This document shows positions 3,838 to 51,715 of a stretch of 64,000 nt of DNA, one piece after another. Position 1 is the stretch's first letter. Each line of letters opens with the position of its first letter. The notes under the pieces were generated by a model, which was given only the letters and a program-made list of their open reading frames with translations, was not told the origin of the DNA and ran no database searches. The stretch comes from Karstenula rhodostoma CBS 690.94 (lineage: Eukaryota > Ascomycota > Dothideomycetes > Pleosporales > Didymosphaeriaceae), in contig MU001499.1 of assembly GCA_010093485.1 (NCBI GenBank), positions 1,193,397 through 1,257,396 on the forward strand, written 5' to 3'. The position numbers and the translations under genes were made by a program.

Positions 3838-4277
3838 GCAGGCTGTAAAACAAGGGCAGGGCAGGGCACGAGGAAATGATATCCGATGTGGCATGGTATG
3901 GTCGCAGCATCAGATGCTGTAGAACGAGGAACACGGCATTTGTACTATAGTTCAGGATACCGAAGGGCACGGCGTTTTGGCTTGGGCGGCACTTGACCTG
4001 CATTGATGGGCCGCATCTGCGATGGTTCTCTAAAATGGAGCCTGATGTTTTCTGGTGGCTGAAGAGCTGCACCTCTTGTTTACACACTCTTGCCTACACT
4101 GCTGTGACGTTTTCCTGATTGTGTAGTGCTGGTGCTGGTGAGCTTCGGCGAAGTGAGTGAGCGCGTCAGAGAGAGAGAGAGCAGAGCGGCCCGAGCTCGG
4201 CTCTGGCGCACGTCACGAAGCTCCAGCATTGAATCCGTGGGCCGCATTTACAGACACCCGACTCCTCACACACGGCA
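3838..4277. other. Intergenic, Nab2-like to HEM14
   Basis: Spacer between two co-directional genes. It holds a short GA microsatellite at 4168-4182 and presumably the 3'UTR of the first gene and the promoter of the second. No coding signal is seen. Confidence 0.5.
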
Positions 4278-6085
4278 ATGCGGCTCAGAAAACATGTCCC
4301 GCTCATCGAGTCGACATTGAAGCGCGTTGCTCTGCGCCCAGCTGCCTCTTCGCTATGCACCCGCTGCCGCCGCTACGCTTCGTCGCAAGCCTATCCTGAG
4401 AAAGTGGCCGTGCTTGGCGGTGGCATATCAGGTCTCGCGAGCGCGTACTTTGTGAGCAAGGAGTTTCCAAGGAGCAAGATCACAATCTATGAAGCGAACA
4501 AGGACAGTGGGGGCTGGATCCAGTCGAGGCGTGTCCAGACTCCCACCGGCGATGTGCTGTTTGAATACGGGGCGCGGACGCTGAGGCCGGGGAGTAACGC
4601 GTTGATCACGGCGCAATTGGTGAGCATCGAGGCCTGTGTGTTGGACAATTGGCTAACGCGTGCTAGATTCAAGATCTGGGTCTTACAGACAATGTCATCT
4701 TCGCTAAGACGGGTTCGACCGGCGCAAAAAACCGCTATGTATACTATCCCGATCGACTCCAACGCCTTCCTTCCCCAGGAGACGCACCCGACTTCTGGCA
4801 CATTGCTGGGCTGTGGCAATCTGGCCTTCTCGCCGGTGCGCCGTCTGCGCTTTTACTTGAACCCTTTCGTCCCCAACGGCCCGAATCTTTGAAAGATGAA
4901 TCGATCGGTGCTTTCATAGAGCGCCGCCTAGACAAGCGCGTGGGAAACAATCTTGCTTCTGCCGTGATGCACGGCATCTATGCTGGCGACATCTGGAAGC
5001 TCAGTGCTCGGACGCTGCTGTCGCAAGCGTGGATGCTGGAGGGTCTGGCAGGTAGCATATTCAAGGGCATGATCAAGATTCAACAGGAGACTCCGTTGAC
5101 GGACAAGGTGATGCTCTTCCATCCGCACGATTTGGATGTGTTCAAGGCCATGAGGGAAGAAGTCAAGCTGGATGAAACTTTCCAGAGGCACCTTGACGGG
5201 TGCGCCATGTTCACCTTCGAGGATGGCATGGCCGAACTGGTAACGGCATTGAAGAAGAATCTCGAAAACAGTGGGCGGGTAGACTTCAAGTTCGGTAGCT
5301 GGGTACAAGACTACAAGCTGGCTGGGGAAAATCGGCAACATGTTGATGTCACCACTGGAGTAAGTACACTCGATTCTGAACTACCTTCCAAAACTGACGC
5401 TTTGCAGCCCAAAGACTCACCCTCTACCGAAAGATACGACCTTGCAGTCTCCACGCTTCGCGACAAGAGACTTACACCTTTTGTCACCGTCCAGACAGTG
5501 AACCTCTATTTCCCGAACCCCAACCTCATTCCTCAAAAGGGCTTCGGCTACCTGATTCCTCAGTCCGTCGCCTTCGAGGAAAACCCCGAGCGTGCTCTGG
5601 GCGTCATCTTCGATTCGGACGCCATCCAAGGACAGGACACTGCCGAAGGTACCAAGCTCACCGTCATGCTTGGTGGCCACTATTGGGATGGCTGGGAACA
5701 CTTCCCCTCTGATGACGAAGCTTATGGTCTAGCCATGTCGCTCCTCCGTCGCCATCTGAAAATCAAAGAGGAACCTACGCACTACAATGTCAACCTCAGC
5801 AAGGACTGTATTCCACAATATACGGTAGGATACGAGGACCGGCTGAAATCGTACGCGGAGCATGTTACATCCCAATATCTGGGAAGGGTACGGGTGGTGG
5901 GAAGCCAAACGCACGGCGTGGGTGTTAACGACTGTATAAGAGGAGCATGGGCGATGGCCCGGCAATTAAGGGGTGCAGGATGGAAGAAGATCGAATCAGG
6001 GTTGGAGAGGGCGATGGATGCTAGGTATGATGGCGCCTGGGTCAGTGCACCTGCCAACCAGGGACCGCCAAAAGTGAAGTCGTAG
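4278..6085 (+). CDS. HEM14: Protoporphyrinogen oxidase, mitochondrial
   Basis: Exons 4278-4619, 4667-5359 and 5408-6085, 570 aa. PPOX oxidises protoporphyrinogen IX to protoporphyrin IX, the penultimate step of heme synthesis, at the inner mitochondrial membrane. The N-terminus is Arg/Ser-rich without acids (a likely presequence), followed by the FAD dinucleotide-binding motif VAVLGGGISGLASAYF (Gly-rich loop at residues 47-52). The C-terminal part carries the usual flavin-amine-oxidase-type ending with GVGVNDCIRGAWAMA. Intron 1 (GTGAGC...CTAG, 47 nt) joins ITAQL to IQDLGLTDN. Intron 2 (GTAAGT...GCAG, 48 nt) is a multiple of three with no stop, so retention would add 16 residues. Length is near the yeast enzyme's (about 540). 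Confidence 0.93.
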
Positions 6086-9999: not shown

Positions 10000-12033
10000 T
10001 CATGTATGACATTTAGGTATTAATCCATACACAACGCTCATTAGTCGGTACCCAGTGCCGAAGCAAACAGAGTGGCCGCTCTCCCTAGCGAATATTTCCA
10101 GACAAGATTCGAGGGTTTCCATAATGGTCCGACGAGGAGGGATTGTATTCTCTGATCCAACAGTGGTAGAAAGTGGTGCATCGACAGACAGTAGATGTAT
10201 ACATGTAGTCAGCGCCGCTGCGAAGAGATCCATCATGAAAGGTCGAGCAATCAGATGGACGTTGGCTGGAAATGCTCCACATTGGGCCATCATCGCCCGT
10301 TGGTGCACGATTAGCGCGAGGCAACACTCGAGCGAAGACCAATACGATGTGGGGTACACGCTCGGAGCGTCCGGATCCAAGGCGTAGTAACGATGTAGGA
10401 CCATGAGCACGCGCCGAAAGAAGATATCGGTCGTTGTGCGTATGATGTAGTTCTGGTTCTCTGCAGCTGCAACAGCCATTCGCATGACTCGCCTTACTTC
10501 CGTGTCGTAATGTAAGACTTCTTCATAGGATATCATTTCCATGCTCGTGTTGAGTCTGGTAAGAATTTCGTGGATGAGAGGATACGAGATCGGTATAAGG
10601 TCGCAGCTATCATGTGGCAGACCCTGCACGTTGTCAAGGGCGTTTGCTAAGAAAGCATCAGCTGGCAACGGAGAAGCCTGCCCAGTCACGAGGGATGTTT
10701 GGATGTCCATCTTGACAACTGCGTTCCATAGACGTTTGCGTTGCTCCCTCTCTTCGAATATGCTGGGCATCTCGTCTGGCTCGGGATTCCAACTTCTATG
10801 CAGCCCCATCATGATGGATAGACGAACAATGAGCCCCACAATATTCCAAGATGCATCAAGGGCCCAGCACGTAGCATAGCAAACCTGCTTGGCCTGAACA
10901 TGTAGGAATAATGTCCGGATGTTAGTCACTGTAGAGCGATACATAAAGGGTGTCTGTGCGAGACAGGCTTCGCTGGCGAAGAACAGTTCAGCAGCGACTT
11001 TGTCTTCGACGCCTGTGGCAGATGCGCCTAATCCTAGCACGGCGAGATACTGAGCAAGCCAACCCAGGTCGAAATTATCCGGAGTTTGCCAAAACTGCTG
11101 CACCTCCCCTTGAAATTTCGAGTTATCGAATACTTGGGTGCTGTCATATAGAGCGAAATAACTTTCCAAATACGTGGAAGCCATGTGACGATGGGTTTCG
11201 AATAGTCTCCGAACTTCTGGTGATGAGCGGTACGGGATGGATTCCGTCGATCCGAACGGAAAGTTACCAGGCAGGGCCAAGTCTTTACTGCAGTCACCTT
11301 GCATATGTGAGCGAACCGACATTGACAGCTGACTCTAATTAGCTTATGCACAGAAACAAATTACATGATACAGACCCATTCAAACGGGGGGTCGCCGAGG
11401 CCAGAAAGCGACTCAAGCTGCTTAACTTCAGTATTTACATCGGCAGAAGAGGTATACTACTCACCCTGGTCATAAGAACCCTCCAATGACCCGAGCCCCG
11501 TTTGCGTTGAAACCAAAGGCTCACGATCATTTCCGCATCGTCACCATCCACTACCAAAGGACCGGCCGAAAACGGAGGTTGCACCTTGTGCGTATACATA
11601 CAATCTCTTCCATGCCCCAGCCGAGCGCATCGGCTACAGCACGGCTGCCCCTTGTCGCATTTTACCTTGAGCCGATGACACCTTATACAAGACAAGGTTG
11701 CGCGGTCCCTTTTCTTGGCGATCCGTCCAGGTGCTGATTCTGTCTCGAGCGGGCTTGGATGACTACTCGACGAAGGACTCAACAATCCAGTTTGAGGTTC
11801 AATTGAACTTTGAGTCAAAGTGTGCTCGGGATAGATACAAATTTGATTCGCGCGCTGGCATCGCGAGCAGCTTGGCTTGAGCTTGTCACACCGACGCTTG
11901 GAGTCCTTGCAGCGTGTGCACTATGCTCATAGGTACAACGTTAGCTGAGTTACAAAAGTGGGTTTGCGTACCAAGTGTCTAAGCGACTTTGTACCAGGGA
12001 GTATCGTACCGTCTGAATTTCCCGTGCGGGCAT
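10000..12033 (-). CDS. Fungal transcription factor with two tandem Zn2Cys6 clusters
   Basis: Modelled exons 12010-12033, 11465-11920 and 10000-11328, 602 aa. Exon 1 is eight codons (MPAREIQT); exon 2 opens directly on the first zinc cysteine. Cluster 1 is CTRC-x6-C-x6-CSRC-x6-C (residues 9-36) and cluster 2 is CIRC-x6-C-x6-CSRC-x8-C about 60 residues on. Both have the lysine/arginine-rich loop of GAL4-type DNA-binding domains. Exon 3 has the helical fungal 'middle homology' type region (for example VRRLFETHRHMASTYLESYF), where ligand or co-regulator control usually sits. Intron 1 (11921-12009) is entirely an introner-like element. The 136-nt gap 11329-11464 may hide a micro-exon near 11372-11424, readable as KQLESLSGLGDPPFEW, so that join is uncertain. 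Target genes are unknown. Confidence 0.75.
11921..12009 (-). mobile_element. Introner-like element, copy 1 (89 nt)
   Basis: On the minus strand it starts GTACGATACTCCC and ends GAGCATAG, so the element ends coincide with the splice sites of intron 1 of the dual Zn2Cys6 gene. It contains GGTACAAAGTCGC, the block AAACCCACTTTT and the branch-like AACTCAGCTAAC. All are shared in the same order with the element at 41413-41513; a net 12-nt internal length difference separates them. The ends are imperfect inverted repeats (GATACTC / CTATGCTC, each followed within a few bases by GGTACAA). No clear target duplication remains at this copy. Confidence 0.8.
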
Positions 12034-20455: not shown

Positions 20456-20959
20456 CTCTTTGCGCGAAGGTGTTTTCGGTAGGGTGTTCGGTGTTTGATT
20501 ACGGTTCCAGTTTGATAGTTCAAGCCTGCCAATAGCTCGATTGTGTAGTAAGCCACATCAGGATCGTGAAAGCTACTTTAAGTACGTGTGCCAAGGCGGG
20601 TACGCCTGGATGAAGAGTAGCAATAGTGATGTGATAGGAGTGGCATTCCCCCTTTGTTCGTGCATTGGCAAAGCACCACGCGCCTTTTTATCCCCCTTAC
20701 TTCATGGATCCACCCCGCCTTATATAATTATCTACAATATATATATAGGAGTGGCATGTTCCGAAACCAACAGCTTCATTTAAATGATGCATTCACAATC
20801 GAGGAACTCGACACACTGTAAATAGCATGTGTTGATGACGACATATGGTTAATTTCCTCCACTGACCTACGTTGGGGGAAAAAGTCGAAGACACGCTGGA
20901 TACTTTTAACATATCGGACAAAATATTCGACGCCTTAAAGAAAGCTAATCATAAAGCCT
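20456..20959. other. Intergenic with AT-rich core and short direct repeat
   Basis: An AT-only-like stretch around 20720-20752 carries several TATATA motifs. The 13-mer ATAGGAGTGGCAT occurs at about 20634 and again at about 20746, flanking roughly 100 bases. Confidence 0.45.
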
Positions 20960-22011: not shown

Positions 22012-23232
22012 GTCGTGATTAATGGTAGTAATTCTGTGTTGGACACCTGAACGAATCGAAGGATCCTGTGAGAATGTTATAATGGACTGCGACTTTATTA
22101 ACGAAAAAGTTTGGCCACATGATCTCCGTGCATTGAATGAACCTTCACATCACATCGCACCTCCTAATTGAAGAGCTGCGTTAGTTTGGGGTTTCGACTG
22201 CCCGGTGATCGGCACCAGTGAATTAATCCAACCTGGCGAAGACGGATTCAAGTACGATATCAACGGCGTCCAAGAGGTTGCACTCGACAGTGATATCAAT
22301 GTCGCGGGAGAGTACAACCCCAGCTTGCCGAAGCTTGGTTCCAAATACTGCGTCACTCCTCCCGAGAAACCTCAAGAATCGTTGAGAAAAGAGGAAGACG
22401 AATACCTGGGCCTGTGGTCGAGCATATCGTAAGTCGCTACCCGATTTGTTACTGATCTTGTACGGTAACTTCTTAACGACGATGACTTTTGTGAGCGGGG
22501 AGTATAGAACAAGATGGACCTGAAGCGAACTGGAGTTGAGATGTGCTCGTTAAGCATTCACCTGGCAAAGTACAGTACTAGGACAAAGTTTGATTACAAT
22601 CGGCCTACGTAATGCCTACCCTATGGCAACAGACTGTACTCAGACTCCTGTCATAGTACTGTAGACCACCGGAATACTTACGATGTTGCACGATTTGAAA
22701 TAGTATTGGTAGATACTAGACATTTCGTCTCGAGATGGAGGTTGCTGCGTACCTAAGTGTAGTACTGCCATGGTTCCAAGAATACGCAAGCTGCGACGTT
22801 AAATTCTGCTTGCCTGGTAAAAAGTGTAAAATTAAGACGATGATATAGGATGAACGGCCCGTCCAAGTTTTGAGATGTCAAATCCCAGTTGAGACTAGCC
22901 CCTACCATTGACACAAGCCTGCACACCTCTCACACCCCACGTCTCACAAGCCCTCCCCGCCCATCTCGCCTCAAAAGTCCACCAGTGACATTCCCCTGCA
23001 CATTTAGCCACCACAACTATTGCGCGATGCCTGATTGTCGTTCTCTAACCATGTCATGCGCGATGCTTAGGCGACCGGCCGCCCCGCGACTGCATTGCAC
23101 TCTTGATGCCTTGATCCCATGCTGCTCAAGCTGCGCCCTACCTCATACTGGTCCCCTCATCGCCCTCACCACGCACCTTCCTTTTGTACTTTTCCTCGCT
23201 GGCGCGAGAGAATGTGCCATCGTTGTTGAGCA
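22012..23232. promoter_or_regulatory. Divergent promoter region of two surface-protein genes
   Basis: About 1.2 kb between divergent genes. An open frame at 22205-22432 shows some codon-like texture but no start context, partner exons or domain, so it is not called. 22890-23000 is C-rich. Confidence 0.3.
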
Positions 23233-40890: not shown

Positions 40891-42398
40891 TTACGCCTTG
40901 TAAAATTGAGGGAAGAACTCCCGCATATCGCTCACCATCTCCTCCGGACACTCCATGCACGCAAAGTGCCCGCCATGATCGTGCTCTGCGTCGCGTCAGC
41001 GCTTCACCTTGCGTTTTACAGGAACCCTTACCTTTGAAGAACTGCAAGTTCGTCGTGGTCGTTTCTGCACCGGCTTTTGGGACTGGGAATGCATCGTACG
41101 GAAACGTGCTCACGCCGAGAGGGACCCGAATGAGGTTCTCTTCCTTTGCGTTGAACTCGGTGTAGACCTCATGCCGCACATTGTTGTAGTAGCACAACAT
41201 CGATGTCATAATGGAAGGCGGAGTGAAGAAGTACAACGACAGCGTCGTGCAAAGGTCATGATTGAATTGCTTGTTCTCCAGACTGGCAGTCTTCAAGCTC
41301 AGATCCGCAAGCTCCTGGTATTTTTCGCCGACAAACATCATAATGCCAACCGGGTTGTCGTTGAAAGCCACGCCAATCGTCTGTGGCCGCGTACGCATCT
41401 CAATCGCGTACCCTATACTCGCGGGTACAAAGTCAGCTGAGTTATAAAAGTGGGTTTATGTACGAAGTGTCCATGTCTAAGACATAGCGACTTTGTACCG
41501 GGGAGTATCATACCCATGTGGCCTTCATTCAGCGGGTCCCCGATCCACCACTTCGCGCGGTCCATGGCTGCCTGTTCTTTCTCGTTCAACTTGGTGCCTT
41601 TTGGTGGCGCTCCTGGGCACATGTTGGTGTGGACTGCCTTGCATGCGGGGTATTTGCCAGTTCCGAGTTCCCGTACTACCTGACCGGAAGGGAACATAGT
41701 CAGCGGAGCCAGATCAATCTGGTGTTCCCATCCTACGTACCCAGTGGCCCCAGTCACCTGCTTGTGCAACGTAAGTCTGATAGCCAAGAAGCCTCATCAA
41801 TTTATCGTATATACGCGCGGTATGTTGCAACGTCCACTTCTCGTCGGGCGGTCCTTGAGACCAACAGAAACCAGGCAGCGAAGGGACGACGAGATGGAAG
41901 GACGGCTGATCAGGCTCTGAAGGCTCGAGCAGAGCATGCATGACATTTTGGAACCTGCCTGTTGTTAGCTTGGGAGCTGACTTCTCACTCAGGGGTCAGG
42001 AAACACACTCGAAAAACGTGCCTGGCCAGCCATGAACAAGGAGGAGTGGTATTGCCTTCTCTTTTCGCACTCTAGCCTCTTCATGTATGAAATGAACGTT
42101 GAGATCTTGTATCACTGTCGTGAAGTGATGCCATTCTGATATCTGCTTCTGTGCGTCTGGCCAAGAGAAATCGTTCAACCAGTAGTTGTACAGTTTGTTT
42201 ATCCGTTCTAGCGAGGGTCCTTGGCCGTATCAGTTAAATCAGATTCAATCACGCGCTTGCGTAAATCTACTGACCATAGGCATGGCCCGCATCCGGCACA
42301 ATGGGTATCTGGGGTAGCCGTGTATCCTTGAGCTTCCGAAACAAGCGATCTACCTCATCCTTGGGAATGCTAGGGTCGAACGGTATGATGTCGGCCAT
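40891..42398 (-). CDS. Microsomal-type epoxide hydrolase (alpha/beta-hydrolase)
   Basis: Exons 42275-42398, 42009-42219, 41741-41954, 41514-41679, 41032-41412 and 40891-40988, 397 aa. An EHN-type N-terminus (IPFDPSIPKDEVDRLFRKLK) leads into the alpha/beta-hydrolase fold. It shows the oxyanion motif HGWPG, the nucleophile AQAGDWGHW (Asp179) and the catalytic His region EHDHGGHFAC (His372, encoded by the last exon). Such enzymes open epoxides to diols in detoxification or secondary metabolism. Two joins use less usual sites (GTCAGT donor with CAAG acceptor; GTGTGT donor). Intron 4 (41413-41513) is wholly an introner-like element. Intron 5 is only 43 nt. The frame closes exactly over all six exons, which supports the model. 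Confidence 0.9.
41413..41513 (-). mobile_element. Introner-like element, copy 2 (101 nt)
   Basis: On the minus strand: GTATGATACTCCC, then GGTACAAAGTCGCT, AAACCCACTTTT, AACTCAGCTGAC and GAGTATAG. The termini are inverted repeats (GATACTCCC-CGGTACAAAGTC against TATACTCGC-GGGTACAAAGTC). GGGTA occurs at both ends and can be read as a 5-bp target duplication. The GT and AG used for splicing sit at or next to that duplication, and the element fills the whole intron of the epoxide hydrolase. CTGAC, 19 bases before the AG, is a good branch site. Confidence 0.88.
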
Positions 42399-49253: not shown

Positions 49254-51064
49254 TCACACGTGACTCACCCCACCGATCACCCCAACACTCCCTCCTCCTC
49301 GCGGGCGCCTCCCTATTGTCGTCCACGACTCCGGGATCCCCACATGTCTCCTTGCCTCATTCTCCTCGAGAAACACCACTATCCATATGGGCGAGTGTCG
49401 ATGTTCGTCGTATCCTGCAAAGTAGACCTTGTTGTCGCGAATGGCTCGATCCAGAATACTCTTGATATCATCGTCTTCAGCCGTGGCAGATATTTTCCAT
49501 CTCGCGTAATGGGACAATCCCACCATTCTTGTATCCTTGTTGCTTAAGAACAATAAGCTAGTTTGGTGGATGCTTTGCGACCATGTTAACTGTTCCAGGT
49601 GAATGCTGCGAAGCCGTGCAAGTTTCAGCATGAGTTCAAATTTCGCTATCCAGGAGGCCTCTTCGCGCTCGTACTTGTCTGATTGGAGCACAATACTAGG
49701 ATATTGGCCTAGAGGATAATCTTCCTCCTGCCGCCGCGAATATTCGTCTACAGACAAAGTAACACGGTTGAATTTGATCGATTCAAGACATTCAGCATGC
49801 CGCGCCAGAAACATCTCCAAGTACAAATCCTGGACAGGAGCGTGGTATATGTCCAGACGACGCAACGTAGGCAAGTGAGCATTGCAGACAATCTTTGACC
49901 AATAGAATGTGTTTTGACAATGCAATTCTTCCACATATCGGCCACAGCTCTTGAACAGCTCGGTGAGCCAATCCGCCCTGTCGTGTGGATCTTTCAGGGT
50001 CTGTATCGTGCGATGAAGGTTGAGGTATCGGACGCGGTCTTTACAAGCTTGCCAGGAGGCAGAGTCGATATCAAAAGGCTTTGTTGCTTGGACGTACCTC
50101 TCACTCGAGTTGAGGTAGAAATCTATTTTCCAGTTCGGCCGATCCTTGATCGCGTCCAGGGCTTCCAGTATTGGGTCGAGATGCCAGTTGACCTTTTCCG
50201 GTTCGGCATCCCTGAATAACTCCCGGGATAGTTCCCGAGCATCGACGCAGTATGGTGCCATTATGGGATGCAGCTCCTGCACAAGAGTGTTCGCCCCCCA
50301 AGGGTGAGTCCGGCCGCACCAAGAGTCGTTGTATCCTCTGCCCGTATCAACTTCGGGGTATGATTCGATGCTGATTACTTGTAGTTTAGTAAAGTTTGTC
50401 AAGGCTTTCTTCAACAGAAGTGTCCCTCTCCCACTGTCGTGAAACTCTTCCTGTATTACACGGCGGCTTTCATGCCATTTGGTGAAATGTGTCTCATGTT
50501 TGGAGTTCATGTAGATTGGCTGCGCGTATGACGACTGTAAGCTGGTCCATGCGGACATATATGGTGCTTCTGCGGGTGTGCGAGTGAGAGGAATGGATTG
50601 GGGCAAAGTCTTGGGTATGCGGTCAGGGCCTAGAGAGATTTTGTGAACGTATGTCGAAAAGACAGAGTGCCGAGCAATCTCAACGAGTGCTTTTAGACTG
50701 TACTCCGAGAACATGTGTTTGCGATGTCGAAAGACACGGATTGCGAATGCATCTCGGACATAGTGGCAGGTGTGCGTGTCGACCAAGCGAAGATTGCAAA
50801 GGTCGTCGGTGCTCAGTATGTGTTTTGGCCCGCCGGTTTCCTCGTTTGTTTGTATAGCATTCGCAATCATCGTTACGAGCTCCAATGCCAGGCCTATTGA
50901 GAAGTGAGTATATTTACCTGAGGGTTCTAACCTCGGACGTATGAATAAGTATAAAGGGTGGCGTTCTCATCGTGAGAGTTGAAGCAAGACTTGTCTCCTG
51001 AAAAGGGCGAGTACTCACATCTAAATGATATAGTTGCTATCAGCAGGTCGGTCTCAGACGACAT
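49254..51064 (-). CDS. F-box/LRR-like hypothetical protein
   Basis: Exons 51019-51064 and 49254-50893, 561 aa. The first 45 residues (MSSETDLLIATISFRCLALELVTMIANAI ...) look like a degenerate F-box leading into DDLCNLRLVDTHTCHYVRDA. The remainder resembles leucine-rich-repeat-like segments of fungal F-box proteins, for example LPTLRRLDIYHAPVQDL and RSIHLEQLTWSQS. Fungal genomes hold many such fast-evolving proteins, often substrate receptors of SCF ligases. The last 30 codons are unusually GC-rich (RRPRGGGSVGVIGG) and are duplicated in inverted orientation upstream of the gene. The intron (125 nt, GTGAGT...AATAG) is longer than average and is inferred from frame. Confidence 0.7.
49267..49348 (+). 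repeat. 82-bp inverted duplication, copy A (inside gene 3' end)
   Basis: Starts ACCCCACCGATCACC and ends CCCACATGTC; it matches the reverse complement of 51239-51320 with about three mismatches. Copy A encodes the last residues of the F-box-like protein on the minus strand. Confidence 0.9.
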
Positions 51065-51715
51065 CGTGGCCGGTATGTCGGCGAAGGTAGGCACAGGGTG
51101 CTCTTCCAAGTGTTACTTGTGGCTTGGCTTGTGATTGAGAGACCTACGACGAAATATAATTTTCCACCAGACTGGACACATTTCGAGAAGTCTCAAAGCC
51201 CTTCGGTCGAGATTTCTTGGCCGAGAATTCTTGGTAGTGACATGTGGGGATCCCGGGCTCGTGGAAGACAATAGGGAGGCGCCCGCGAGGAGGAGGGAGT
51301 GTTGGGGTGATCGGTGGGGTTCTTGGTAGTTCACGACAAGCAACGGCAGTTGTTGGGAATCGGCACCACTACCAGGATAGGCAGCGCTGAAATCCGGGTA
51401 CCAGCTCATTTGGTATTAAGTGCCCACAGCGTTGACGGGTAACTAAGTTCGTGCGCATTTTAGAAACTAGAACGACTCTTTATGAATCGGCGTCCTTGGT
51501 TCCGTTCCTGCAAGAGTTGTATCACGGGGTACTCAAATCTGGGCAACTAAAAGCCCCACATTGTATTTCCCTTGGTGCATATAAGCCGCCCCAGCATTTG
51601 CTTTTTGTTGACTGTCGTTGAACAAAGCAACAATATTATCGTTCAGTCAAACAGTGGCACGTAGCTAATGTGGATGTTTCCACTGAACTTCTACTTCTAA
51701 ATATTTTCAAGGCAG
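51065..51715. promoter_or_regulatory. Promoter region of F-box-like gene containing inserted fragment
   Basis: Between the F-box-like start and the ketopantoate reductase stop. It holds copy B of the inverted duplication about 180 bases upstream of the start codon. No gene recognised. Confidence 0.45.
51239..51320 (-). repeat. 82-bp inverted duplication, copy B, with 11-bp flanking repeat
   Basis: Reverse-complement copy of 49267-49348. It is flanked by TTCTTGGTAGT at 51228-51238 and 51320-51330, consistent with a target-site duplication. Its frame corresponding to HVGIPGSWKTIGRRPRGGG has a stop directly upstream, so it is a non-coding fragment. Confidence 0.88.

Follow-up and report, generated by a model that had tools for sequence, protein, structure and literature searches.

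Intron origin is a long-standing question. Introner-like elements were reportedly found in Dothideomycetes by Torriani in 2011 and by van der Burgt in 2012, and Huff is said to have described DNA-transposon introners in 2016. Fungal introner-like elements of Dothideomycetes are also treated in the accessible part of Collemare 2015 (PMC4457414). According to the accessible text of Fekete 2021 (PMC8469720), the earlier Dothideomycete elements have inverted repeats and stable structures and prefer AG/GY sites; the same text describes Hypoxylaceae introns with terminal inverted repeats (TIRs) of 45-55 nt and no duplications. In the broad survey of Gozashti 2022 (PMC9860276), as far as its available sections go, ascomycete introner families have neither of these two marks, that is, no TIRs and no target duplications (TSDs), and an Acanthoeca example has TIRs without TSDs.

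The element described here is the complete fourth intron of an epoxide hydrolase gene in Karstenula rhodostoma. It lies in a stretch of 64,000 nucleotides, called the window below. The gene model has six exons and encodes 398 amino acids; its features are the following:

41413..41513, minus strand: introner-like element, 101 nt, forming the whole of intron 4 in the epoxide hydrolase gene
41512..41513, minus strand: 5' splice site GT (GTATGA), element-borne
41413..41414, minus strand: 3' splice site AG (GAGTATAG), element-borne
41489..41508, minus strand: near-terminal inverted repeat arm, donor side, 20 nt
41415..41434, minus strand: near-terminal inverted repeat arm, acceptor side, 20 nt
41432..41436, minus strand: CTGAC, which we take to be the branch-site motif, straddling the inner edge of the acceptor-side arm
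42275..42398, minus strand: exon 1 (gene model)
42007..42219, minus strand: exon 2 (gene model)
41741..41958, minus strand: exon 3 (gene model)
41514..41679, minus strand: exon 4 (gene model), 3' end ..CACATGG
41032..41412, minus strand: exon 5 (gene model), start GGTACGCG..
40891..40985, minus strand: exon 6 (gene model)

The two arms are 90% complementary over 20 nt. Compared with the 101 nt of the introner, the remaining four introns of the gene measure 46, 48, 55 and 61 nt. As single-stranded DNA, the intron folds better than 200 of 200 dinucleotide-preserving shuffles (z -4.1). Its retention causes a frameshift; the spliced junction reads CACATGGGGTACGCG and encodes HMGYA, the same as in relatives. 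Positions 41413-41513 are a real intron and an introner-like element, with splicing predicted from the reading frames. The first-pass annotation of this DNA had already proposed the 101-nt GT..AG intron, the inverted-repeat ends, the CTGAC motif and the spliced product, and all four hold. Its central idea, that the entire intron is a repetitive inverted-repeat introner that leaves the protein unaffected, is likewise confirmed, and numerous copies occupy intron positions across the genome: the genome-wide search that it suggested yielded about 70 copies, the pair in the window included, and the comparison of orthologues, also suggested there, found the site without an intron in 18 metagenomic relatives.

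A profile built from 40 copies matched the genome (44.3 Mb, 29 contigs) 71 times at 27 bits or more and 69 times at 39 bits or more; all copy counts are lower bounds, and the window's own two copies are counted once among the 71. The matches lie in 68 of 80 loci fetched, and the other 12 have no profile match. Matches below 27 bits (for example in L112, L104, L028 and L045) are outside the 71, the weak members of which are L093 (30 bits) and a second match in L046 (28 bits). A similarity search of the genome gave 74 candidates, with at least 40 scored copies of 86-100% identity. With as many as 3 mismatches allowed, a 19-base internal pattern matched 70 times, compared with 5 times for its reversed control, and a 21-base end pattern matched 75 times, compared with 0 for the control (both arms counted). 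Queries with two diverged copies gave 20 and 7 places, none of them new, suggesting that the set lacks few recognisable copies. The window's second copy is the following:

11921..12009, minus strand: second, more diverged family copy, 89 nt

It lies directly 5' of a cysteine motif on the same strand, presumably Zn2Cys6-like.

Family-wide measurements refer to a clean set of 62 copies, from which matches below 56 bits, L099, L106, L111 and two more copies without a clean GT or AG are excluded. Since copies had to have GT and AG, and the nearest of each was picked, the presence of GT..AG in 62 of 62 copies is a selection effect; in the unselected alignment, most rows have GT and AG as their first and last conserved bases, exceptions being for example L033, L038 and L046. 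Length is exactly 101 nt in 38 of the 62 copies, median divergence from the consensus is 7%, and 60 have CTRAY near the 3' end. The consensus bears near-terminal inverted repeats of about 20 nt and differs from the epoxide hydrolase copy at 3 of 101 positions.

Some copies have unusual surroundings. Three introner copies of L080 (sense, ~4060-5446) lie in what reads as a single transporter-like gene, and the middle one has no standard 3' end. By reading, the introners of L010 and L020 are separated from another ordinary intron by tiny exons of 11 nt and 5 nt, respectively. Two single-copy sequences with weak profile similarity, L046:294-392 (minus strand, counted in the 71) and L028:1399-1499 (plus strand, outside the 71), are possibly old decayed copies; a second introner family had been suspected from them and was rejected, as each query retrieved itself alone.

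Genome-wide searches with other repeats of the window showed none of them to be an introner, and at gathering scores Rfam does not match the window. An 82-nt repeat occurs at 49267-49348 and 51239-51320 in opposite orientations and has 220 candidates genome-wide (among the 41 matches listed, 40 span 73-82 bases at 94-100%, itself included); its copy at 51239-51320 has the direct repeat TTCTTGGTAGT on both sides. Positions 20647-20741 hold a very abundant repeat (327 candidates, at least 40 scored, 85-93% apart from itself) with flanks that are noncoding by the frame test. The short element at 22571-22664, with ends TACAGTAC..GTACTGTA and 20 genomic places including itself, looks like an ordinary MITE. 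A different repeat family in L090-L092 (~1020-1175, 87-95% alike) was probably caught by the 19-base internal pattern through chance.

In an alignment with the 91%-identical protein of Paraphaeosphaeria sporulosa (Didymosphaeriaceae, Pleosporales), the spliced epoxide hydrolase shows no gap around residues 239-244 (HMGYAI); against remote solved epoxide hydrolases, a gap of one residue falls no more than two residues from the junction. Among the best 120 of 225 relatives, 20 sequences continue beyond exon 5 and lack the usual splice there, and the site motif is uninterrupted in 18 of these; P0039 is aligned without interruption at the intron site too. Metagenomes are the source of 18 of the 20, and all 18 metagenomic frames are uninterrupted at the site and apparently unspliced; nine of them come from contigs of more than 4 kb, and the others could partly be transcripts. 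P0077, with the highest identity among these metagenomic sequences, matches 46% of the query at 92% identity and comes from a 43-kb contig. Absence of the intron in relatives, established at this one locus, points to a recent intron gain at the epoxide hydrolase site. At other loci, there is no gap near the junction in comparison with solved homologues for L036 (plasma-membrane ATPase), L110, L015 and L076; L047 has a one-residue gap about five residues from the junction, and L109 has one adjoining it in comparison with a remote solved homologue.

Nearly all copies are found in genes and on the sense strand. When 90-nt flanks were scored with a codon model that had been trained on long reading frames of the window, 49 of the 71 copies had both flanks confidently coding in a single phase, 45 in sense and 4 (not listed singly) in antisense orientation (binomial p 8e-10); 2000 random window points gave 418 sense and 423 antisense calls. 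A looser multi-window rule called 44 copies sense and 3 antisense and left 24 unclassified; the three antisense calls (L082, L083, L080) were re-read by eye as sense genes. The translations read by eye show sense coding on at least one side in all copies but L079; these readings are judgements, with several copies clear on one side only and L084, L086 and L087 the weakest, and the protein names used in them are our assumption. L079 has no recognisable coding flank and lies about 220 nt past the end of an opposite-strand frame, which we assume to be HIS3-like. Among the 44 automatically called sense copies, phases 0, 1 and 2 occur 3, 29 and 12 times. The frame test placed 1 of 10 copies of other short repeats of the genome above the cut-off, compared with 47 of 71 introner copies; seven of these ten had no coding flank pair, two a weak and one a strong one, in a control that is small (n=10) and in which L100, among the seven, had nearly no upstream flank. 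By this ten-copy control, other short repeats of the genome are mostly outside coding sequence.

In the 62 clean copies no register of a target duplication stood clearly above the pair-shuffled expectation, with registers from -15 to +12 on the donor side and -12 to +15 on the acceptor side and word lengths of 2 to 5; shared words occurred as scattered low counts only. Words of at least 5 shared between the edges were found in 4 of 62 copies, compared with 3.7 in shuffled pairs. No splice site is taken from the target: the element itself supplies GT and AG. Insertion shows a preference for a 3' exon starting nCA, with exon positions +2+3 being CA in 26 of 62 copies (background 8.1%), and for G or T, then C, after the insertion point.

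The inverted repeats can pair as a hairpin: in 31 distinct full-length copies (of 32 chosen from the 62), 92% of cells are paired over 31 pairs, inner pairs included. No covariation was detected in these 31 copies; a change of one pair from T-A to C-G in 6 of 62 copies (2.1 expected) was considered as covariation and is read instead as subfamily ancestry. Across the 62 copies, paired positions diverge by 0.084 and unpaired ones by 0.085, and the hairpin therefore seems dispensable after insertion. It looks as though the repeats came with the founding sequence and are not maintained by selection in resident copies; thus, they are probably unnecessary for splicing. Every place matching the end pattern is in a short copy, save L112, in which one end only is recognisable, so that no long partner with the same ends is seen among all end-pattern places.

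The most probable explanation, in which we have reasonable though not full confidence, is a recently active introner-like family whose new copies arise via an RNA intermediate tied to transcription. We favour RNA-linked insertion because the ends are transposon-like and the footprint of a transposon is absent; such a route agrees with the sense bias, with splice sites flush with the element ends and with the missing duplication. The 101-nt unit would be a self-contained spliceosomal intron with donor, branch site, acceptor and near-terminal inverted repeats of about 20 nt, and its new copies would come from an RNA intermediate coupled to transcription: excised intron RNA may be joined into another gene, preferably immediately upstream of nCA, either through reverse splicing or by being ligated into a break that is under repair. 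The hairpin would aid persistence or capture of the excised RNA and is seemingly not needed once the copy is inserted. Several points count against the RNA route: the repeats and the nCA preference could also be obtained from a DNA transposase, reverse splicing has no obvious use for repeats, L079 has no recognisable coding flank, four copies were called antisense in the 90-nt flank test, and one-residue gaps occur in comparison with remote homologues (L109, L047, epoxide hydrolase). A more specific version, which we put forward tentatively and hold to be rather less likely true than false, is an element born of the spliceosome with the excised hairpin RNA as its moving form, the repeats having evolved or been retained to serve RNA capture and not a transposase, and nCA being read on the 3' exon. 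If true, this would explain some transposon-like fungal introners that have no transposon footprint.

The strongest competitor, which we consider unlikely while giving it some weight, is a miniature inverted-repeat DNA transposon that makes no target duplication and whose sense insertions into exons were tolerated while others were lost. Such tolerance would follow from the element bringing both splice sites; the arms of about 20 nt, the nCA target preference (26/62) and the position of L079 outside recognisable coding sequence all agree with it. However, no target duplication is seen in the 62 copies, and no autonomous partner is seen among the end-pattern places. Moreover, selection would hardly purge intergenic copies, yet nearly all copies sit in sense in coding genes: selection against bad insertions alone would not account for the near-absence of intergenic ones. 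The other short repeats of the genome, in the small control described above (1/10 compared with 47/71), mostly do not share this coding context.

Far less probable, and barely worth retaining, is a DNA-transposon introner of the Huff type with a 5-bp GGGTA duplication that supplies the splice sites, as the first-pass annotation had read the intron. GGGTA is indeed found at both edges of this one copy: the register match occurs in 1 of 62 clean copies, the epoxide hydrolase one, and shared words are at chance level, so that GGGTA is discarded as a family feature and the 62-copy word test refutes such a duplication as a family property. GT and AG do not arise at a duplication, as had been claimed; both are part of the conserved element. 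The further claim that the spliced sequence equals the one before insertion fails under a 5-bp duplication, since the site before insertion would then be one G shorter than the spliced sequence and one base shorter than what relatives encode; the two claims are thus mutually inconsistent. What stands of that annotation is the intron, the arms and the spliced product on the side of observation and the introner element on the side of interpretation; the target duplication and the splice sites made by it fall, and with them the direct evidence for insertion of a DNA transposon. An ordinary old intron with chance similarity to others, for which canonical sites and the four other introns of the gene could be cited, can practically be dismissed, given similar sequence at about 70 places, 3 differences from the consensus in 101 positions and the homologous site in relatives without an intron.

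The family is a new one of a known kind, the fungal introner-like elements, set apart from the named families by their descriptions; a literature search on introners and Paraphaeosphaeria found no prior account of it by title or abstract, in a search scope with subscription papers mostly outside. Like the Dothideomycete introner-like elements, it comprises nearly identical introns that occur in unrelated genes, were gained recently and seamlessly, are predicted to fold strongly and exceed ordinary introns in length, and the AG/GY preference given for the earlier elements in the accessible text partly overlaps the G or T, then C, after the insertion point. It differs from them by a host near Paraphaeosphaeria (Pleosporales), near-terminal inverted repeats of about 20 nt in the consensus, the nCA preference on the 3' exon and the phase-1 excess. 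DNA-transposon introners, as far as the available descriptions go, likewise have terminal inverted repeats, many copies and splice sites at the element boundary; unlike them, the present family has no target duplication, brings both splice sites itself and is strongly biased to the sense strand. Copies in either orientation or outside genes, a trait of MITE introners, were not found among the 71 in the reading by eye, with the exception of L079.

TIRs without target duplication and seamless insertion are also described, in the accessible text, for the symmetrical sister stwintrons and type-2 cropped introns of Hypoxylaceae, and these introns (PMC8469720, PMC12403724, available parts) similarly function on the coding strand only, with canonical introns among them. 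In those parts, however, the Hypoxylaceae arms measure 45-55 nt, compared with about 20 nt here, and meet at a central palindrome in cropped introns; the members are mostly twin introns, whereas here a single 101-nt intron is found in a different fungal class; and no target preference is reported there, while nCA is preferred here. This is a young family of manageable size, about 70 recognised copies, with repeats present and duplication absent. The separation of these two marks, together with the target preference and the strand bias, makes the family well suited as a natural test case for telling DNA transposition from RNA-linked insertion. On the descriptions available, it is nearest to the Dothideomycete elements and the Hypoxylaceae introns.
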